From: Microthrixaceae bacterium
Lineage (GTDB): Bacteria; Actinomycetota; Acidimicrobiia; Acidimicrobiales; Microtrichaceae
Assembly (NCBI GenBank): GCA_023957995.1
Contig: JAMLGK010000002.1
Coordinates: 186,001-250,000, forward strand
Direction of reading: 5' to 3'
DNA: 64,000 nucleotides
Shown here: positions 7,959 through 17,306 of the stretch, piece after piece
How positions within the stretch are numbered: position 1 is the first letter of the stretch
Layout of the letters: the number at the start of each line of letters is the position of its first letter
Program-made: the position numbers and the translations under genes
The notes under the pieces: generated by a model
Told to the model about the DNA's origin: nothing
What the model saw: the letters and a program-made list of their open reading frames with translations, nothing else
Databases searched by the model: none

Positions 7959-8055
7959 GGAGGTGGACGAGTGCCTGGTGGGCTCCCCGGTCTTCAAAAC
8001 CGTGCGGCATCCGGTGTTCGGGTGCGGGGGGTTCGATTCCCTCCTGCCTCCGCCA
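7959..8055 (+). tRNA. selC: tRNA-Sec (anticodon UCA)
   Basis: A 97-nt selenocysteine tRNA. An 8-bp acceptor stem (GGAGGTGG with CTGCCTCC, two wobble pairs), the loop CTTCAAA with anticodon TCA at 7994-7996, a long variable arm with a 6-bp stem, a T-loop TTCGATT, discriminator G and encoded CCA are all visible. The extended acceptor stem and long variable arm are hallmarks of tRNA-Sec. It decodes UGA when delivered by SelB. It stands about 90 bases upstream of selD and heads the selDAB genes. Confidence 0.97.
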
Positions 8056-8146
8056 CCAGTACCCACCGACATCAGCGCCCACCGCCAGGACCGACCGCCA
8101 GGACCGACCGCGACAGTCTCGGGACCGTTTCGTTCCCCGGAGGACA

Positions 8147-9250
8147 ATGCAGACCGAACCGATGTCCATCGACCAGCCCGGCGCGCCGGACCTGCGTCTC
8201 ACCATGCACGCTCCCGGCGCGGGGTGTGGGTGCAAGCTGTCGGCGTCGGAGCTGCAGCAGCTGCTCGGAGCGGTCAGCGCATCTGTTCCGGCTGACCCCC
8301 GCGTGCTGGTCGGCCCCGAGCTCTCCGACGATGCAGGCGTGTTCGATCTGGGTGACGGCCGGACCCTGGTGCAGTCGGTAGACGTGTTCACCCCCGTGGT
8401 GGACGACGCCTTCGACTGGGGCAGGATCGCGGCGGCCAACGCGCTCAGCGACATCTACGCCATGGGGGCAACACCGGTGACAGCACTGCAGATCCTTTGC
8501 TGGCCGCGGGATCTCGACGCCGGTGTGGCCGCGCGGGTCCTCGACGGGGCAGCGGAGGTGCTGGGCACCGCGTCGTGCTCACTGCTGGGGGGACACTCCA
8601 TAGACGACCCCACGCCGAAGTTCGGGCTCTCCGTCACCGGGCTGGGTCAAGGGCCGGCGCTCACGAATGCAGGGGCGGTTCCGGGCGACGCCCTGGTGCT
8701 CACCAAGGCTCTCGGTACCGGAGTGGTGACAGCCGCCAACGCCGCGCGGGCCGTCGAGGATGAGACCCTTGCCGCTGCGGTCGAGTCGATGGCACGGCTC
8801 AACGCTGATGCAGCGGAGGTCGCCCGAACCCTCGGAGCGCACGCGGTGACCGACGTGACCGGGTTCGGCCTGGTCGGCCACCTCCACGAGATCTGCCGTG
8901 CTTCTGGAGTGTCGGCCGACATCCATGCGGAGCTGCTGCCGGTGCTTCCGGCGGTTCGCTCACTGATCGAACAGGGCCACCTGAGCGGCGGTACCCGACG
9001 GAACCGGGCGGACGCGCTCGCCGGCGGCCTCAGGAGTGCCGATCCCGAGTCGGTGCACACATGGTTGGCCTGCGACGCGCAGACCTCCGGAGGTCTGCTG
9101 GTGGCGCTGGATCCCGTGGCGGCCGTCGCCGCGGTCGACGAGCTGCGCGGCAGGGGACACCCGGCGACGTTGATCGGTGAGCTGAACCGATGTGGTGCCG
9201 ACGGGGCAGTGGTGCGGATCAGGGACGGATCGCAGCGGTACGTTCCGTGA
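8147..9250 (+). CDS. selD: Selenide, water dikinase
   Basis: Makes selenophosphate, the selenium donor for Sec-tRNA synthesis, from selenide and ATP in the cytoplasm. The catalytic N-terminal motif GAGCGCK has cysteines at residues 27 and 29 and Lys30. The position that is Sec in some SelD proteins is cysteine here. The AIR-synthase-type ATP-binding regions (GPELSDDAGVF, GGHSIDDPTPKFG, DVTGFGLVGHL) follow, and 367 residues is near the family length. GGAGG at 8139-8143 is close to the ATG at 8147; the ATG at 8162 is an alternative. The stop overlaps the start of selA. Confidence 0.96.
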   Translation: MQTEPMSIDQPGAPDLRLTMHAPGAGCGCKLSASELQQLLGAVSASVPADPRVLVGPELSDDAGVFDLGDGRTLVQSVDVFTPVVDDAFDWGRIAAANALSDIYAMGATPVTALQILCWPRDLDAGVAARVLDGAAEVLGTASCSLLGGHSIDDPTPKFGLSVTGLGQGPALTNAGAVPGDALVLTKALGTGVVTAANAARAVEDETLAAAVESMARLNADAAEVARTLGAHAVTDVTGFGLVGHLHEICRASGVSADIHAELLPVLPAVRSLIEQGHLSGGTRRNRADALAGGLRSADPESVHTWLACDAQTSGGLLVALDPVAAVAAVDELRGRGHPATLIGELNRCGADGAVVRIRDGSQRYVP

Positions 9251-10698
9251 GACCGCCCAGCGTCGAGCGACTGTCACGACAGGTGGAGGAGGCGCTGGGT
9301 AGCGCCGGGACATCACGATCGGGTCCGCTGGTCCGGGCGGCGGCGAGACGTGTGATCGAGTCGCAGCGTCGGGCCGGGGGCCTGTCCGACACAACTGCGG
9401 AGAGCGCCGCCCTGGAGACCGCTGACCTGGAGACCGCTGACCTGGAGACCGCTGACCTGGTGGCCGCGACCCTGGCCGAGCTCGAGCGCGTCTCTCCGGC
9501 GCGCAGGGTGATCAACGCCACCGGGGTGCTGCTGCACACGAACCTCGGTCGTGCCCCGCTGGCGCTGGAACAACTCTCGGACCCGGGGTCATCCGCGGTC
9601 GGCTACTCGAATCTGGAGTTCGATCTGAACACCGGACGCCGCGGGGCGAGGTCGGTGGGCCTCGAGGCCTCCCTGTGTGCCCTGACCGGTGCGGAGTCGG
9701 CCCTGGTGGTCAACAACAACGCCGCAGCGGTCCTGCTGGCGGTGTCGGGACTGGCCGCCGGTCGCGAGGTGGTGGTGTCCCGCGGCGAGTTGGTGGAGAT
9801 CGGAGGATCGTTCCGGATCCCTGATGTGATCACCCAGGGCGGTGCCCGGCTGGTCGAGGTGGGCACCACCAACCGCACCCATGTGGCCGACTACCGGGGC
9901 GCGTTGGGTGATGACTGCGCTGCGCTGCTGTCGGTCCACCGGTCGAACTTCGAGATCGTGGGCTTCACCTCGGGCGTATCCTGCGGACAACTGGCAGAGG
10001 TGGCGCGCCTCGGCGGCGTCCCCTTGGTGGTCGATCTCGGCGGTGGCCTGCTGGACTCCCGTTGCGGCTGGATCGACCGCAGCCCACCGGCCTGGCTGGC
10101 TGACGAACCGGCGGTGCGTCAGACGCTCGCCGCCGGTGCGGATCTCGTCACCTTCTCCGCCGACAAGCTCCTCGGCGGACCCCAGGGCGGGATCATCCTG
10201 GGCAGCCGACGGTTGGTCGACCGACTTCGGAGGCACCCTCTGGCGCGGGCGCTGCGACTCGACCCGCTGAGAGCCGAGCTGCTCCAGAGGACCGTCGACT
10301 CCTACCTGGGTGGGACTGCGTGCAGCGACATCCCCCTGTGGCGCATGGCAACGATTCCGACCGAAGAACTGGCCGAGCGAGCCGACAGGATCCTCGACCA
10401 GCTCGAGGACGGCGGCGAAGGTGCCCCACACGGCGCGCCGGAGTGCTCGGTGGTGGAGATCGCCGGCACCATCGGTGCCGGCGCAGCTCCCGGATCGGCG
10501 ATCCCCGGGGTCGGGATCCAGCTGGAGACCAATGGGGCCACCTCGGCCGACGGGATCCTGCGCAGGCTCAGGTCCATGAGCTCCCCGGTCGTGGGGGTGG
10601 TGGGGCAGGACTGCGTCAGGCTCCACCTGCGCACGGTCGACCCCGAGGACGATCGCGCCCTGGTCGGTGCCCTGCGCCATGTGACCTCCGGGCAGTGA
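9247..10698 (+). CDS. selA: L-seryl-tRNA(Sec) selenium transferase
   Basis: PLP enzyme that converts seryl-tRNA(Sec) to selenocysteinyl-tRNA(Sec). Recognisable blocks are INATGVLLHTNLGRAPL, NNNAAAVLL and the PLP-lysine motif FSADKLLGGPQGG with K307. From the GTG at 9247 the protein has 483 residues. This GTG overlaps the selD stop as GTGA, which favours it over any upstream start and implies translational coupling. The N-terminal region carries a perfect 15-bp tandem repeat (9412-9456) that adds ETADL units in a segment that is variable between SelA proteins. Confidence 0.96.
   Translation: MRPPSVERLSRQVEEALGSAGTSRSGPLVRAAARRVIESQRRAGGLSDTTAESAALETADLETADLETADLVAATLAELERVSPARRVINATGVLLHTNLGRAPLALEQLSDPGSSAVGYSNLEFDLNTGRRGARSVGLEASLCALTGAESALVVNNNAAAVLLAVSGLAAGREVVVSRGELVEIGGSFRIPDVITQGGARLVEVGTTNRTHVADYRGALGDDCAALLSVHRSNFEIVGFTSGVSCGQLAEVARLGGVPLVVDLGGGLLDSRCGWIDRSPPAWLADEPAVRQTLAAGADLVTFSADKLLGGPQGGIILGSRRLVDRLRRHPLARALRLDPLRAELLQRTVDSYLGGTACSDIPLWRMATIPTEELAERADRILDQLEDGGEGAPHGAPECSVVEIAGTIGAGAAPGSAIPGVGIQLETNGATSADGILRRLRSMSSPVVGVVGQDCVRLHLRTVDPEDDRALVGALRHVTSGQ
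9412..9456 (+). repeat. 15-bp in-frame tandem repeat inside selA
   Basis: Three perfect copies of CTGGAGACCGCTGAC, followed by a partial fourth. Because the unit is 15 bp it keeps the frame and encodes repeated LETAD. Confidence 0.95.
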
Positions 10699-10747
10699 GG
10701 TCGGGCAGCGAGGTGGGACACCTGGGTGGGTCATCGAGAGGGCCTCG

Positions 10748-12709
10748 GTGATCCTCGGCACCGCCGGGCACGTGGACCACGGGAAGTCCACCCTGGTGCG
10801 GCTGCTCAGCGGAACGGACCCCGACCGCTGGGAGGAGGAGCAGCGGCGTGGGCTGACCATCGGTCTGGGGTACGGATTCATCGATCTTCCGGGGGTGGGT
10901 TCCGCGGCGATCGTCGATGTTCCCGGGCACAACAGGTTCCTGCCGGCCATGTTGCAGGGGGCCCACGGCGTCGACATCACCCTCCTGGCGGTGGCAGCGC
11001 ACGAGGGGTGGATGCCCCAGACAGCGGAGCACGTGGCGATCCTCGATGCTCTCGGCACGAGGAGCGGCGTGGTGGTCCTCACGCACGCCGATCGCGTCTC
11101 CGATGCTGATCTGGTGGCGCTCGTGGGTGACCTGCAGGAGAGGCTCGAGGGCACCTTCCTGGCTGCTGCGGTGTCCGACCCGAGCGAGGTGGTGAGGGTG
11201 GACGGGACCAACGGATCGGGGATGGTGGAGCTCCGCCACCGCCTCGGCTGCGTCGCCTCCGAGGTGGCAACGGGTCCCGCCCATGCAGGTTGGATGGTCG
11301 GATCCGGACGACCGAGGCTCTGGGTCGACAGGTCCTTCCTGCTGGGTGGGGTCGGTCGTGTCTGCACCGGCACCCTCACGGGAGGCTCCCTCGCCGTCGG
11401 TGACCGCATCGAGGTGGTTCGCTCCCGCTCACGCGGCGGTCCGTCGACCTCCGCCACCCGGGTGGACTCGATCCAGGTGCACGGGGACGAAGCGGATGTG
11501 GCCCATTCGGGCACGCGCGTCGGACTGCGTCTTGCTTCCTCCCGGATCGTCCCTGAGGTGGGCGATGCGTTGGTGCACCGGTCGCAGTGGGGTGGCGGTC
11601 GTCATCTGCACGCGGCGCTCCGACCATTCCAGCAGGGATCCAGCGGGCCGGTCCGGGAGCTGAACCAGCGACGTGGCTACGACCTGGTGGTAGGCACGGC
11701 TCGCTGGCCCGTGGAGCTGCGACGTTCGCCCAGGGTGCCGGGCCCGCTGGTCGTTGAGGGCTCGGAGGAGCGATGGTCACCGGTGCGCCTGCACAGCGCC
11801 CATGAGATCGGCCCGGTGGCGCCGGGGGACCGTTTCGTGCTCATCGACAGCTCGACCGCCCGAGCGGTCGCCGGCGGGGTCCTGTTGGCGGTGCACGACA
11901 CCGTGGTCCGACTCGGTGCCGACGAGCTCGGAACGCGACTGGGTGCGGTGCTATCGGCAGATACAGCGGCACTGACAGACGCTCTGCTGGCCGAGCGGCG
12001 CGGCACCGCGCCAGAGGCGGTGATCGTGACCGAGGTCGGGTCGATCGCGGATGGCATCCCGACCGACGGACGACATGCATTCCACCCGGAGCTGTTGACC
12101 GATCTGCGTTCTGCGCTGTTGGGCGAGATGGCCGCACCGAACGGGTTCGGGGGGATTCGCGTCGGGACGGATCCGGCACGTCGTCGCGTCGTGGCCGACC
12201 TGGTCGCACAGGGCCGGGTGGTGGTCTCCGACGGCCTCGTCAGAGTGTCGGGAGGCGAGGACCCCAGCGACCGCATCGAGGTTCTCGCCGGTGGTCGACT
12301 GTGGCGTCGGGCGGAGCTCATGGGGGTCCTGCGCCAGGCCGGGCTGCCCGAGGAGACCTTGGCGTCGGCCACCAGGAGCGGGAGCCTGGTCTGTGTGTCG
12401 CGATCGAACACCCGGGGAGGTGCCGGAGACTCGGGTAGGGGGTCGGCGAGACGCCCGGGTGCCACCGAGCGACTCGTCGGTCGGGCGACGATGGATCGTT
12501 TCGCACAGTTGGTGGCCGACCGTCTGGCCGAGTCCGCGGCGACATTGGCGGAGCTACGTGACGCGCTCGGTCTCTCGCGCAGTGATTCGCTGGCGGTGCT
12601 CGAACACCTCGACCGCACCGGTGTCACGTTGCGAAACGGGGAGGTCCGGACAGCGGGTCCGAACGCGCCGAAGCCACGGCCTCGGGCCCGTCGTCCGGGA
12701 ACCGGTTGA
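10748..12709 (+). CDS. selB: Selenocysteine-specific translation elongation factor
   Basis: GTPase that delivers Sec-tRNA to UGA codons bearing a SECIS element. The P-loop GHVDHGKST is at residues 7-15, followed by the RRGLTIGLGY switch segment, DVPGHNRFLPAML, EF-Tu-like beta-barrel domains and a C-terminal winged-helix region that would read the SECIS hairpin. It has 653 residues and a GTG start about 50 bases after selA. Together with selC, selD and selA it completes the bacterial Sec machinery. The C-terminal end is Arg/Pro-rich and stops shortly before a 14-bp tandem repeat. Confidence 0.96.
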   Translation: MILGTAGHVDHGKSTLVRLLSGTDPDRWEEEQRRGLTIGLGYGFIDLPGVGSAAIVDVPGHNRFLPAMLQGAHGVDITLLAVAAHEGWMPQTAEHVAILDALGTRSGVVVLTHADRVSDADLVALVGDLQERLEGTFLAAAVSDPSEVVRVDGTNGSGMVELRHRLGCVASEVATGPAHAGWMVGSGRPRLWVDRSFLLGGVGRVCTGTLTGGSLAVGDRIEVVRSRSRGGPSTSATRVDSIQVHGDEADVAHSGTRVGLRLASSRIVPEVGDALVHRSQWGGGRHLHAALRPFQQGSSGPVRELNQRRGYDLVVGTARWPVELRRSPRVPGPLVVEGSEERWSPVRLHSAHEIGPVAPGDRFVLIDSSTARAVAGGVLLAVHDTVVRLGADELGTRLGAVLSADTAALTDALLAERRGTAPEAVIVTEVGSIADGIPTDGRHAFHPELLTDLRSALLGEMAAPNGFGGIRVGTDPARRRVVADLVAQGRVVVSDGLVRVSGGEDPSDRIEVLAGGRLWRRAELMGVLRQAGLPEETLASATRSGSLVCVSRSNTRGGAGDSGRGSARRPGATERLVGRATMDRFAQLVADRLAESAATLAELRDALGLSRSDSLAVLEHLDRTGVTLRNGEVRTAGPNAPKPRPRARRPGTG

Positions 12710-12724: not shown

Positions 12725-12766
12725 GATCAGTCAGCAGGGATCAGTCAGCAGGGATCAGTCAGCAGG
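12725..12766. repeat. 14-bp tandem repeat at a convergent gene junction
   Basis: Three perfect copies of GATCAGTCAGCAGG between the selB stop and the convergent minus-strand gene. The stop codon of the latter (12755-12757) lies in the third copy. Confidence 0.95.
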
Positions 12767-13234
12767 GTCGATCGCGATGGTGGCCGCCACCATCGCAGCC
12801 GCCCTCGAGAGTCGGTCGCGCCTGCGATGACTTCCGATCGCCACGTAGAGACAGAACGCCCGTCCGCCAACCGAGTAGAACTGCTGGTGGCCGGACTGGC
12901 CCTGGATCGGTCGGTGCATGTTCTCGCGTTCGAACGCTCCACCGTGGATCGTGCGCGGACCGACGTGATCGAACAGTGGGGTGCCCGCCGAGGAACGGTC
13001 GTACTCCACCAGCGCAACGAACACGTCGTCAGGGCCCATGTTCATCAGGAAGTCGCCTCCGAAGTCGCCGCGCACCGCTGGCAGGGCGAAGCTGGCGACG
13101 TGCAGCACCGGGTTGACCGTGCCCCCCGAGTCCTCATCCGCGTCAGCCGAAACAGCGAGGCTGCGCGAGATTGCGCCGTCCCATCCGGTGGGAACGGTCA
13201 CCCGGAGTCCATGTGCACTGAGGGTTCGACTCAT
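12755..13234 (-). CDS. 159-aa protein, last gene of the mau-like operon
   Basis: A soluble protein of 159 residues that I cannot assign to a named family. It begins with LSAHGLRVTVPTGWDG, has a central segment of alternating hydrophobic residues (FVALVEYDRSS) and ends with FCLYVAIGSH and a basic stretch. It looks like a single compact alpha/beta or all-beta domain with no signal peptide or membrane segment. Its ATG overlaps the stop of the membrane-protein gene as ATGA, so it is translationally coupled and belongs to the operon. Its 3' end runs into a 14-bp tandem repeat. Confidence 0.75.
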   Translation of the reverse strand: MSRTLSAHGLRVTVPTGWDGAISRSLAVSADADEDSGGTVNPVLHVASFALPAVRGDFGGDFLMNMGPDDVFVALVEYDRSSAGTPLFDHVGPRTIHGGAFERENMHRPIQGQSGHQQFYSVGGRAFCLYVAIGSHRRRDRLSRAAAMVAATIAIDPAD

Positions 13235-13857
13235 GCGATTCCTTCGGTGATGAGAGCGGCGACAGCCACCAGTCCGAGTGTGGTCAGCAGCCAGGATGTG
13301 AGTCGCGCCGACCGTTGCGCTCCGGTGCCGATCCGGCGGTGCAGCGCTGCGAGCGAGTCGGTGTCGACCGCGCTGCGGGCGACGAGGAGTACGAGGCCCC
13401 GTGCAAGGCCGAAGGTGGCGCCGACGATCACCGATGAGAGAGGCAGGGGCCATGGCGCGGCTGCATCGGCCCCGCCGCTCGAGAGGATGATCGCCGCCAC
13501 GACGGTCCACATGGACCAGGAGGTGATGATCGTGACCAACCCGAATCCCAGTTGGGTGCCGAACCCGAATCCGTAGACCCAGCCCCGATAGGCGGTCAAC
13601 CAGTTCTCGTTGACCTGTCGGGGAATCGACGGCGGAGCCGGCCCCCAGCGGTCGGCCGCGGCGCCGCCGAGCAGGATCAGCGCCAGCACGGCCAGGGACA
13701 CCGTCGGGGTCAGGAGCCCGGCGAGTGCGGTCAACGGGGAGGCCAACAGACCGAGCAGCGCGCCACCGAGCAGCGACCCCACCACGTATGCCGAGGTCGT
13801 CAGGGTCCATGAGTTGCCCTTGGCCCGCTCACCGAGCGGAGTGATGCTGGACAGCAT
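13231..13857 (-). CDS. Polytopic membrane protein of the mau-like operon
   Basis: A 208-residue integral membrane protein with about five to six hydrophobic helices (roughly residues 20-45, 50-70, 95-120, 122-145, 150-168 and 188-206). It has no cysteine pair that would make it a DsbB or MauF-type thiol enzyme, and I do not recognise the family. GAGGTGA upstream of the ATG is supplied by the end of the small ORF at 13867-13947. The downstream gene overlaps by ATGA. Its position next to MauE/MauD-like genes suggests a role in maturation, export or electron transfer of the secreted light-chain-like protein; this is inferred from context only. Confidence 0.75.
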   Translation of the reverse strand: MLSSITPLGERAKGNSWTLTTSAYVVGSLLGGALLGLLASPLTALAGLLTPTVSLAVLALILLGGAAADRWGPAPPSIPRQVNENWLTAYRGWVYGFGFGTQLGFGLVTIITSWSMWTVVAAIILSSGGADAAAPWPLPLSSVIVGATFGLARGLVLLVARSAVDTDSLAALHRRIGTGAQRSARLTSWLLTTLGLVAVAALITEGIA

Positions 13858-13866
13858 CGATTCACC

Positions 13867-13947
13867 TCAAGGCGACCAGCTGGAACGCACCGCACCGATC
13901 ACTGCGGTCGCGATACCCAGGGCCAGGACGGTTTCGGAGGTGTTCAA
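13867..13947 (-). CDS. Small hydrophobic 26-residue ORF
   Basis: A TTG-started ORF of 26 codons whose TTG overlaps the TGA of the MauD-like gene as TTGA and whose end provides the Shine-Dalgarno of the next gene nine bases on. The peptide has one hydrophobic helix (VLALGIATAVIGAV) flanked by short polar ends, so it could be a single-span micro-protein. It fills what would otherwise be an 86-base gap in an operon where every other junction overlaps. It could also be only a coupling device. Confidence 0.45.
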   Translation of the reverse strand: MNTSETVLALGIATAVIGAVRSSWSP

Positions 13948-14834
13948 GGCGAGCCTTCCTCGGCTCGGTCGGTGACGGGCGAAGCGACGCCTGGATCGGA
14001 TGCCTCTTCGGGTCCGGGGGCCAGGCCCACATCAGCGGCGGTGTGGGTGAGACGCGGATCCCCGGGCCGGATGCCCGCGGCCAGCAGGTCAGCGTCGATC
14101 CGGTCGCGGTTGCCGGTCAGCACCGACCGCCGCGAACGCGCCCCGGTCTGCTCGGCGGGGGAGTCGATGGCGTGAAGGGCTGCGTCCTCACGGGCGCGTT
14201 CGAGCAGCGAAGCAACCTGGGACCACTGTGCAGCAGCTCCCTCACCGACCACGCGGCCCCCGACCACCAGGGCGAAGTAGGGGGCCACGGGCACCCCGAA
14301 GTCCTCCCAGGCGTCGGTGGACATGACCACGGGCACCTCGTCGGGCGCCAACTCAGCGATCCTGGCGGGTGACTCCGATTCGACCCCGTGGGTGACCACG
14401 ACCACCCGGGTGCCATCGGCGAGCAGACCCTCGTCGAGTTGTTCTCCCGAGGCGAATGCATCCCAGAAACGGTGGCAGGTGGTGCATCCGCTGGACAGGA
14501 ACGCCACCAGGACATCCCCGGAGTTGGTCCCGATCGTCGTGGCATCGCCCTCGGGCGTGATCCCACTGATGTCGGCCGCTGCGTGCCCGAGAAGGTCCGC
14601 AGGGGCCGGGACCCCCGCAACCGTGCCCGCGTCCGCGACCGGATCACCGCCGGTCATCCGCCGCCGCCCGGCCGGCGCCCGGTCGGTCGGGTCGGTTCCG
14701 TCGGCGTCCGGATCCAGGCTCACGCCGAGTTCCTCGAGCGCCCGCAACACGTCCGCGTGGCTGCGCAGCAGGCTGATCACCAGTGCAGCCAGCAGGCCGA
14801 CGGTGAGGGCGAGCAGCGCCACTACGACTGTCAC
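13944..14834 (-). CDS. MauD-like membrane-anchored thioredoxin-fold protein
   Basis: A 296-residue protein with an N-terminal transmembrane helix (residues about 2-24), a variable linker, and a thioredoxin-like domain with the CxxC motif SSGCTTCHRFW and a cis-Pro region VPVAPYF. The Cys pair faces the outside of the membrane if the N-terminal helix is an anchor. MauD proteins are thiol-disulfide enzymes needed to form the many disulfides of the methylamine dehydrogenase light chain. The direct neighbour upstream is a Cys-rich light-chain-like protein, which fits. The GTG start overlaps its stop as GTGA. The low-complexity C-terminal 80 residues are unusual. Confidence 0.75.
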   Translation of the reverse strand: MTVVVALLALTVGLLAALVISLLRSHADVLRALEELGVSLDPDADGTDPTDRAPAGRRRMTGGDPVADAGTVAGVPAPADLLGHAAADISGITPEGDATTIGTNSGDVLVAFLSSGCTTCHRFWDAFASGEQLDEGLLADGTRVVVVTHGVESESPARIAELAPDEVPVVMSTDAWEDFGVPVAPYFALVVGGRVVGEGAAAQWSQVASLLERAREDAALHAIDSPAEQTGARSRRSVLTGNRDRIDADLLAAGIRPGDPRLTHTAADVGLAPGPEEASDPGVASPVTDRAEEGSP

Positions 14835-16741
14835 TGCACCTCCAGGCGAGCCGATGCCAACAGCACCGGCACCGTGCGAGGGCCGTCCAGGGTGGCCACG
14901 ACATCCACCTCGTGGATGCCCGGCGCCACGGCGAGCACCTCGGTGGTACCGGCCGAACCGGGACGGATCGAGGCCCGGTAGTCGCCATCGACCAGGACCC
15001 GCAGAACTGCATTGGTGTTCCCGTCGACGCGTGTCACCTGTGTGGCGCTGAGCGAGATGCCGCCCGGTACGGTCGAGAGATCGGTGACGGCCCCGAGGGT
15101 GGTCGCTGCCACGGCGGTCTCCATGCAGCCCAATGGTCGGTTGCTGCCACCGCCGATGTTCATGGCGGTGGCGCAGACCTCATGTGTCCCGGGGTCGAGA
15201 TCGGTGAGCGTCACATCGAACCCGTGTCCGTCGTGTCCGTCGCCCCGGGCAGCGTTGGCCGGGTGGGTGCCGGCATCGGTTCCGTCGACGGTGAGCTTCA
15301 CAGTGATGGCTGCGGTCGTATCGGCATCGGAGGCCCAGCCGGTGGCACGAATGGTCCCGGGTCCCGTGGAATTGACCGATTCGAGCGCCCCTGAAGGGTT
15401 GGCCGGTATCACCACGTCACGACATCCCAGGTCGACGTCGGCGCCCGCGTTGATGTTGAGGGCTGTCACGCAGATCCGGTGTCGACCGGGCGCAAGTGCG
15501 ATCTTCTCGTCGAAGCCGTACTTGCCGCCCAGATGGGGATAGGCCTGTTCCACATCGCTGCGGTAGCGGGCCGCGGTGACGGTCCTGACCGTTCTCCCGT
15601 TCACGCTGATCCGTACCCTGGACGATGCGAACGCATCCACGTCAACCGCGAAACCCACCACCCGTGCACTCCCCTTGGATGCATTGAGTGCCGGCGCGGT
15701 CCCGGTGACGCTGTCGAAGTGCCCGAAGGTCTGGCCCGTGACCGTGATCATCTTGTGGCCGATCCAGGTGGAGCCCTGGCCGGAGGTATCGACCGCTGCT
15801 ACCGAGATCAGCTGCTCGCCGGGACAGAGGCGGAGGAACGAGTCGAAGCCGTGGTTCGGGCCCAGTGTCGGGTAGCTCCTCACGAGGTCCGGTCGTGGGA
15901 GGTCGGCCCGCACGATGGTCTTCGGCTGCAGGCACGAGTAGATGACCACGGCTATCGGCGCAGCGGTGGCGGGGTCGACCGCCCATCCGCGCACCCGCAC
16001 GCCTCCGGGTACCACTCCTATGAGGTCGGTCTTGCCCGAGGCGTCCACGGCCAGGCACGGGCGGTGGTGGTAACGGGTCTTGTTGTCGGTGCGGACCGCC
16101 GTGGTGCACGAACCATCGATCATCCAGGGCTGGGTGCAGGTGACCACCCGGCACACGATCGGCCCCACGCAACGAACATGTTGGTTGCACTGGCCGTAGC
16201 GGAACCCGGTGCAGCCGGTCTTGCGGTTGTTGCAGTTGCCGTGCGCACATCCGCACGGGGTACCCGAACAGGATCCGGCACAGATTCCGTTCCCGCCACA
16301 TCCGCAGCCCCCGCAGGCAGCGTTGCAGTCCATGTAGTAGCGCGGACCGCCACCGCAGAAGCTGTGTCCGTCGACCTTCCACCAGCCGGCCAGAAGGGTT
16401 CCAGAGGGGCACCTGTTGGCGCCGTAGATCGCGCAGCAGAACTCGGTGTAGCCGTCGTTGCAGAGAGCGCCTCCGCCGCAGACCGCCGCATAGGCCGACA
16501 TCGGACGCAGCACCCAGTCGGTGGGTGCGACAGCCAGCGCCGTGCCCGCCATCGCCCCCCGACGAAGCAGTCCCCGGCGGTCGACCTTCCGGCGCAGGAA
16601 GCCCCCGATGCGTGCGGCCAGCCGTCCCCTCCGCGCTGTTCCCGCCGGGACTGCTGTGCCCGAGGGAACCGGTGTGCGGTTGGGAGCTGCTGTATCGGCG
16701 GGAACTGCTGTGCCGGCGGGAACTGCTGTGCTCGCGGTCAT
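14831..16741 (-). CDS. Secreted methylamine-dehydrogenase light-chain-like protein with C-terminal repeat domains
   Basis: A 636-residue protein. Residues 1-40 are TAVPAG-type repeats. A twin-arginine signal follows (RR at 55-56, GLLRRGAMAGTALA), as in MADH light chains, then a domain with 22 cysteines (88-209). Here CPSGTLLAGWW and YYMDCNAACGGCGC match the family around the first TTQ tryptophan (W120/W121) and the active-site Asp (D138); W186, six residues before CTTAV, may be the second TTQ tryptophan. Residues 210-636 are about four beta-sandwich repeats with VRGWAVDP and GHFDSV signatures, seen in actinobacterial surface proteins. ATG overlaps the mauE-like stop (ATGA). Whether a TTQ cofactor forms is unproven: no heavy chain or MauG is encoded here. 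Confidence 0.8.
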   Translation of the reverse strand: MTASTAVPAGTAVPADTAAPNRTPVPSGTAVPAGTARRGRLAARIGGFLRRKVDRRGLLRRGAMAGTALAVAPTDWVLRPMSAYAAVCGGGALCNDGYTEFCCAIYGANRCPSGTLLAGWWKVDGHSFCGGGPRYYMDCNAACGGCGCGGNGICAGSCSGTPCGCAHGNCNNRKTGCTGFRYGQCNQHVRCVGPIVCRVVTCTQPWMIDGSCTTAVRTDNKTRYHHRPCLAVDASGKTDLIGVVPGGVRVRGWAVDPATAAPIAVVIYSCLQPKTIVRADLPRPDLVRSYPTLGPNHGFDSFLRLCPGEQLISVAAVDTSGQGSTWIGHKMITVTGQTFGHFDSVTGTAPALNASKGSARVVGFAVDVDAFASSRVRISVNGRTVRTVTAARYRSDVEQAYPHLGGKYGFDEKIALAPGRHRICVTALNINAGADVDLGCRDVVIPANPSGALESVNSTGPGTIRATGWASDADTTAAITVKLTVDGTDAGTHPANAARGDGHDGHGFDVTLTDLDPGTHEVCATAMNIGGGSNRPLGCMETAVAATTLGAVTDLSTVPGGISLSATQVTRVDGNTNAVLRVLVDGDYRASIRPGSAGTTEVLAVAPGIHEVDVVATLDGPRTVPVLLASARLEVQ

Positions 16742-17241
16742 CGTTGCCGCCGAAGGTCGGCCCGGATCGTGCGCAGGTCGGCTCCCGTGCTGAGCAGCTC
16801 TGCCAGCATCACTGCTGCGAGTAGTGCCAGTGCCACCGCGAGGACGCGCTCGTTGGGGTCGGGTCGGAACCAGGTGAGCCCGGACGACGCAGCGGCGGCG
16901 CCCGCAACAGCGCTCGCAGCGAAGGCCACGTTCACGACCAGGTGGGTGATGCCGGGTTTCACGGGTTCCACTCCGAAACATCCACAGTCCGGCTCGCGAC
17001 GGAGGATCGCCACGGACAACGAAGCCGCGAGGAGGCAGTACATCGCCGCCATCGCCACCAGCGCCGCGGTTTCCGGCGCGACCAACACCCAGGCGCCGAC
17101 ACCGATCTCGAGCACACCGAGTGGACGAGCCATCCCGGAGGGGATGAAGGGCACGCTGACCGCACCGGAGGTCTTGGGGATTCCCGCCACCACGAGCAGG
17201 GCAGCGCCGACGGCCGACGCGATCCAGATCACCGAGGTCAT
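16738..17241 (-). CDS. MauE/DoxX-family membrane protein
   Basis: A 167-residue membrane protein with four hydrophobic helices and the MauE signature DCGCFG around residue 85. MauE is a membrane partner of MauD in making the methylamine dehydrogenase light chain stable, probably through disulfide formation. The gene is first of the main operon. Its ATG overlaps the stop of a 10-codon upstream ORF (ATGA) and its stop overlaps the light-chain-like start (ATGA). Related CGCFG proteins also occur outside methylamine metabolism, so the role here is inferred from its neighbours. Confidence 0.85.
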   Translation of the reverse strand: MTSVIWIASAVGAALLVVAGIPKTSGAVSVPFIPSGMARPLGVLEIGVGAWVLVAPETAALVAMAAMYCLLAASLSVAILRREPDCGCFGVEPVKPGITHLVVNVAFAASAVAGAAAASSGLTWFRPDPNERVLAVALALLAAVMLAELLSTGADLRTIRADLRRQR

Positions 17242-17270
17242 CTTGTGGTACCTCTTGCCCCGTCCCCCAT
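17238..17270 (-). CDS. Leaderless 10-codon upstream ORF
   Basis: ATG at 17270 opens MGDGARGTTR followed by TGA, which overlaps the mauE-like ATG as ATGA. A TAGCGT box ends seven bases before this ATG, so the transcript probably starts at or next to it. The arrangement implies leaderless translation of a short peptide coupled to mauE-like translation. Confidence 0.5.
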   Translation of the reverse strand: MGDGARGTTR

Positions 17271-17277
17271 GGGGACG

Positions 17278-17306
17278 ACGCTACACGCGGTGCCTCACCT
17301 GGTCAC
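17278..17306 (-). promoter_or_regulatory. Promoter of the mau-like operon
   Basis: On the minus strand GTGACC (17301-17306), a 17-base spacer and TAGCGT (17278-17283), followed by seven bases and the ATG of the 10-codon ORF. The -35 overlaps the stop codon of the upstream prpD-like gene, so the two operons on the same strand abut. Confidence 0.55.

Follow-up and report, generated by a model that had tools for sequence, protein, structure and literature searches.

A predicted selenocysteine-containing MauF is encoded with MauE, MauD and a cysteine-rich Tat-leader protein in a conserved actinobacterial operon

Results

The stretch of DNA analysed here (hereafter the window) comprises 64,000 nt from a Microthrixaceae bacterium (GCA_023957995.1, JAMLGK010000002.1; assembly 96.8% complete). 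An operon occupies positions 12755–17241 of its minus strand, with genes mostly coupled through 4-base overlaps. Read 5' to 3', these encode a 167-aa MauE-family membrane protein carrying a DCGCFG motif (16738–17241), a 636-aa Tat-exported Cys-rich protein referred to here as LC (14831–16741), a MauD-like, membrane-anchored thioredoxin-fold protein with a CxxC motif at residues 117–120 (13944–14834), a 238-aa membrane protein read through an in-frame TGA from a TTG start (13231–13947) and a 159-aa protein (12755–13234). The first-pass annotation of this DNA had listed six minus-strand ORFs, mostly overlapping by four bases, and our ORF coordinates agree with it. However, two of the six, a 26-codon ORF (13867–13947) and a polytopic membrane protein (13231–13857, internal ATG at 13857), are not separate genes but the 5' and 3' pieces of a single frame, which a TGA (13867–13869) splits. 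Convergent with the operon lies a complete selenocysteine (Sec) cluster (7961–12709, plus strand), consisting of selC, the tRNA-Sec gene (7961–8051; ARAGORN, Rfam RF01852), selD, selenophosphate synthetase (8147–9250; TIGR00476, E 1e-106), selA, selenocysteine synthase (9190–10698; TIGR00474, E 7e-135), and selB, the selenocysteine elongation factor (10748–12709; Pfam SelB-wing_3, and TIGR00475 at E 1.6e-59, under the model cutoff).

The MauE-like and MauD-like identities proposed earlier were borne out. The former protein matched Pfam MauE (PF07291) above cutoff (E 6.8e-10) and has a CxC motif, and the MauE family profile matched Paracoccus MauE (E 3.5e-11). Likewise, the MauD family profile matched Paracoccus MauD (E 1e-10) with the CxxC conserved, whereas a single-sequence comparison with the NCBIfam MauD model gave a match under its cutoff. 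The 159-aa protein has no Pfam match and carries the conserved motifs HG...LPxGW and RAFCLYV. Its structure model was of low confidence (48.6) and the top structural match, PsbP-like, was not significant (E 0.08); the protein is perhaps PsbP/Mog1-like.

Genes for MauE, LC, MauD, a MauF-like protein and the 159-aa protein co-occurred in ~40 loci from several actinobacterial classes, and this joint recurrence argues against a chance assembly. LC was present in 43/148 genomes of the order sample and 30/396 of the phylum sample. Wherever the flank was sufficient, MauE, MauD and the 159-aa gene stood beside LC, as did MauF in most loci; gene order within the operon differed between loci, and no further conserved neighbour was common to them. 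The tie between LC and the 159-aa protein was strict, the latter occurring in 42/43 LC genomes and 0/105 LC-negative genomes of the order sample (Fisher, P = 3e-36), and in the sole exception LC was truncated by a contig end. These two proteins define two new families. The position of the sel genes beside the operon was not kept in relatives, in which tRNA-Sec lay far off or on other contigs. A viral contig scan and a plasmid tblastn search with LC as query were both empty.

Judged by profile comparison, the interrupted membrane protein is a MauF homologue. A profile built solely from the actinobacterial copies matched Paracoccus MauF (E 9.4e-19) and the homologue in Thermomicrobium roseum (E 6.3e-15), and the family combines this homology with a WSP-C/U-G motif. 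At nearly every locus, the interval between MauD and the membrane ORF held a 21–29-codon ORF ending R-S-x-W-S-P followed by a stop, and the membrane ORF resumed in frame exactly 9 nt after that stop. Paracoccus MauF is a single uninterrupted chain at this position (STWSP-C-GYS), with its Cys aligned to the TGA of the window gene (WSP-U-GES, residue 27). The interrupting stop was always TGA (29 at first count, 34 with divergent copies), and the G at +1 and S at +3 after it were invariant in 33/33 sequences. Four homologues had TGC or TGT in its place. Seven LC genomes at first seemed to lack MauF, a reading dismissed once a whole-genome search located a Cys-MauF elsewhere in each, outside the operon. 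In total, Cys forms (TGC/TGT) were found in Paracoccus MauF and 10 LC genomes. Besides the residue at the TGA, 22/30 TGA-containing copies offer no Cys.

The TGA of MauF is predicted, with high confidence, to encode Sec (Sec-MauF). The all-TGA pattern was discarded as stand-alone evidence: 93% of the stops of these genes are TGA, and 30/30 would arise by chance with a probability of 0.11. The prediction rests instead on the frame conserved on both sides of the TGA, the Cys homologues, a SECIS-like hairpin (below), the Sec machinery in the window and the co-occurrence of tRNA-Sec (called from a best hit of at least 56 bits, the next, non-Sec hits reaching 53 bits at most), which was present in 29/29 LC genomes with TGA-MauF versus 0/10 with Cys-MauF (Fisher, P = 1.6e-9). 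Among LC-negative genomes of the order, occurrence of tRNA-Sec was mixed (17/28). Both states were found within single families, the window genome having Sec and a member of its own family Cys, with the same split in a second family. The Cys-MauFs formed a single clade (support 97/95) from hosts in seven families, so the ten Cys genomes do not represent independent mutations. Hosts of this clade lacked tRNA-Sec, and most of its members were encoded outside the LC operon; it looks as if loss of Sec had been accompanied by replacement with a Cys-type mauF gene.

A hairpin resembling a bacterial SECIS (bSECIS) element follows the UGA (UCCGCUC-GGU-GAGCGGG, 13824–13840, minus strand). Published bSECIS criteria call for a G in the first two loop bases, a loop 16–37 nt after the UGA and a minimum free energy of -7.5 or lower (PMC13188914), and the window hairpin satisfies them (-9.2 kcal/mol, apical loop 33 nt past the UGA). 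Such hairpins occurred in 29/34 TGA genes, 0/11 Cys genes and 16/200 control stretches after ordinary stops. In two further loci (L040 and L049) the stem was preserved via paired changes (CCGUUC/GAACGG), yet its stability fell short of the energy cutoff. Shuffled versions of the 54-nt region of the window folded with energies no higher than that of the real sequence (z -0.67). A second conserved hairpin (GAUGCU-GUCC-AGCAUC, 13843–13858) lies between the UGA and the SECIS-like one.

The first-pass description of LC as a twin-arginine secreted, 22-Cys protein was confirmed in both its Tat leader and its 22-Cys N-terminal domain, which Ig-like repeats follow. The twin-arginine motif was invariant (26/26). 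The conserved Cys-rich domain spans residues 84–230 (16052–16492, minus strand); across 52 sequences it shows at least 12 near-invariant Cys and the invariant residues G119-W120-W121, R134-Y135, D138, F180-R181-Y182-G183 and R198. Residue numbers given previously for W120, W121 and D138 are correct, whereas "W186" is actually W206. Tails after the domain varied among relatives (SLH, LGFP, DUF4214, Ig-like or FG-GAP-like repeats); those of the window LC gave a weak Big_7 match, and four proteins had no tail. These wall-type and repeat tails point to a cell-surface protein with the Cys-rich domain as the constant part and the tails as interchangeable ones. Selenocysteine in LC itself was also considered. 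TGAs in four copies were rejected as the natural ends of standalone proteins. In L083/L104 (genome G457), TGA takes the place of the leading Cys in the FCC motif (F-TGA-C) a few bases short of where the contig ends, which may reflect Sec, a pseudogene or an assembly error and was not accepted as Sec.

The earlier proposal of a secreted redox operon with mau maturation genes and without a heavy chain agrees with our searches. Neither the heavy chain of methylamine dehydrogenase (MADH; mauB, PF06433) nor mauG (PF03150) was found in the genome, Paracoccus positive controls being detected for both, and mauG was likewise not found in 13/14 related genomes. The accompanying idea, that the MADH light-chain fold is reused in LC, drew weak support. 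The two are alike at the motif level (CPPGT..WW and D138 versus W57 and D76 of the light chain, whose TTQ tryptophans are W57 and W108), but the Cys-rich domain had no significant sequence match in PF02975, NCBIfam or PDB, and hhalign of the mature domain against the light chain gave a probability of 10.8%. The score of this mature-domain comparison was beaten by 1/300 column shuffles. Including the Tat leaders raised the probability to 95.8%, a value that is mostly leader-derived and to which generic Tat likeness may contribute; the leader-inclusive score exceeded all 200 versions with a shuffled mature part, the closest reaching 60.0 versus 60.1. A structure model of the domain, built from two sequences, had a pLDDT of 34. 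With no profile match above the Pfam cutoff, LC was not accepted as a PF02975 member, and these comparisons make it plausible, and weakly suggest, that its Cys-rich domain descends from a MADH light chain. The claim that the TTQ tryptophans are retained was not supported: the LC column of the hhalign alignment has no Trp at the W108 position, W206 is missing in 5/52 sequences, and the adjacent W120/W121 pair is the only invariant one. This, together with the failure to find mauG, led us to reject TTQ as the best reading of LC.

Related loci were seen beyond the LC genomes. Three LC-negative genomes (G025, G014 and G004) encode MauE, MauD and Sec-MauF (WSPUGLS) next to another kind of Tat Cys-rich protein, a candidate second client family with the motif VCGQSGxSPxCxTYDC...ICDCC. 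The trio may thus have more than one client. In G018 and G016, divergent MauF-like frames contain a TGA, in frame and close to where MauF has its own (APUITN and SVUSVN, respectively), with further unrelated Tat Cys-rich proteins nearby; these frames are possible, more distant Sec-MauFs. On a T. roseum plasmid (L028, 49–9349), several PF02975 light-chain proteins alternate with propeller-like proteins, and the locus also encodes MauD, a fusion of a propeller with MauE, and a MauF whose frame is broken by TGA (WSP-U-GYS). The TGA is present in this MauF, but a hairpin meeting the bSECIS model is absent.

Discussion

The functions of MauF, MauE and MauD are known mainly from methylamine dehydrogenase. 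In methylamine metabolism, MauE and MauD are described as required, and MauE has been linked to the disulfides of the light chain (PMC7794033, citing van der Palen 1997). Because of this mau parallel, we propose that MauD, MauE and Sec-MauF act on the disulfides of LC. With the conserved gene set, MauE/MauD/MauF homology, TGA/Cys exchange, hairpin and tRNA-Sec co-occurrence all read from sequence, the explanation we consider probable overall is an export-coupled disulfide-maturation line, including Sec-MauF, for one dedicated client. That this client is LC we infer from operon linkage and the mau parallel, and maturation of LC is quite likely the role of Sec-MauF.

In the proposed scheme, Tat would translocate LC with its 22 Cys, after which its disulfides would be oxidised or shuffled by MauD through the CxxC of its membrane-anchored thioredoxin fold. 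MauE (CxC) and MauF would relay redox equivalents, either inside the membrane or from one side of it to the other, in a direction that the scheme presumes. The SelA/B/C/D machinery and the in-frame SECIS hairpin would insert Sec at the UGA, and this Sec would be the sole conserved redox residue of MauF. Most Sec-MauFs have no other Cys, so that reaction of the selenol with a partner thiol is likely, probably by forming a selenenylsulfide bond between MauF and either MauD or MauE. Mature LC would then be held at its presumed cell-surface location through its exchangeable wall-binding or repeat tails.

The strongest rival, to which we give slightly less than an even chance, accepts Sec-MauF and makes LC a structural, adhesive or S-layer-like protein that is rich in disulfides and has no redox role, for which the Mau proteins act only as a foldase. 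The SLH, LGFP, Ig-like, FG-GAP-like and DUF4214 tails fit this reading, as do the near-invariant Cys (at least 12) and the LC-negative genomes that pair MauE, MauD and Sec-MauF with other Tat Cys-rich proteins; however, the invariant non-Cys residues (WW, RY, D138, FRYG and R198) look functional, and tail-free, standalone LC versions exist. Improbable, in our view, is a broader reading in which the trio forms a general Se-dependent assembly line for disulfides or cofactors of several unrelated Tat-exported surface proteins, the MADH light chain being one client, and in which W120/W121-D138 of LC also form a novel redox site, derived from Trp or modified in some other way. Less credible again is LC as a TTQ enzyme that needs no heavy chain and acts as a quinoprotein amine dehydrogenase in its own right. 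Its likeness to the W57/D76 motif, the mature-domain score beaten by just one shuffle in 300, the similarly long Tat leaders and the presence of MauD, MauE and MauF are countered by the missing Trp at the W108 position, the loss of W206 in some relatives, the absence of Pfam and PDB sequence matches and the failure to find mauG or a heavy chain. Finally, a genuine stop, with a microprotein of 26 aa cooperating with a MauF fragment of 208 aa made separately, is very hard to credit even though each piece has an open frame and a plausible start, given that the G-x-S codons between TGA and ATG are conserved and match the one-chain Cys-MauF, that tRNA-Sec tracks the TGA versus Cys state perfectly and that, of these two gene types, only TGA genes have SECIS-like hairpins.

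Compared with known systems, the disulfide-maturation line proposed here most resembles the mau cluster of Paracoccus denitrificans (mauF-B-E-D-A-C-J-G), in which MauF, MauE and MauD homologues also adjoin a Tat-leader, disulfide-rich secreted protein. Unlike that cluster, the operon lacks mauB, mauC and mauG, its client gives no detectable PF02975 match and has wall-type tails, its MauF is predicted to contain Sec rather than Cys, and there is an extra 159-aa gene. The T. roseum locus shares MauE, MauD and a TGA-interrupted MauF with Cys-rich Tat-type proteins, but there these are true PF02975 members adjoining propeller-like proteins. In Streptomyces, clusters with mauE/mauD beside Cys-rich precursors have been assigned a proposed role in RiPP modification (PMC7794033), and there, too, MauE/MauD have been enlisted for Cys-rich products unrelated to methylamine metabolism. 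The Streptomyces candidates, in contrast, have small precursors instead of large surface proteins, and no MauF selenoprotein is reported for them (PMC7794033). Known prokaryotic selenoproteins, such as the rhodanese/DsbD fusion-like TsoB and the UGC TlpA family, likewise have Sec in place of a redox Cys, a SECIS after the UGA and thiol-disulfide themes (PMC13188914). The 119 prokaryotic selenoprotein families/subfamilies of that 2026 catalogue include no MauF-type membrane protein bearing a WSPU motif (PMC13188914). NCBIfam has no model for Sec-MauF, and no report of it was found in the literature outside subscription journals. Gene callers break Sec-MauF into two genes at the UGA.

Exchange of Sec and Cys classically marks a residue with a catalytic redox role. 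The active residue of MauF is hereby pinned to the WSP-Cys, which is exchanged for predicted Sec exactly when the genome is able to make Sec, and its chemistry becomes directly testable. The bacterial selenoproteome apparently gains a membrane-protein family, and the MauE/MauD/MauF trio appears to work without methylamine dehydrogenase, widespread in Actinomycetota.
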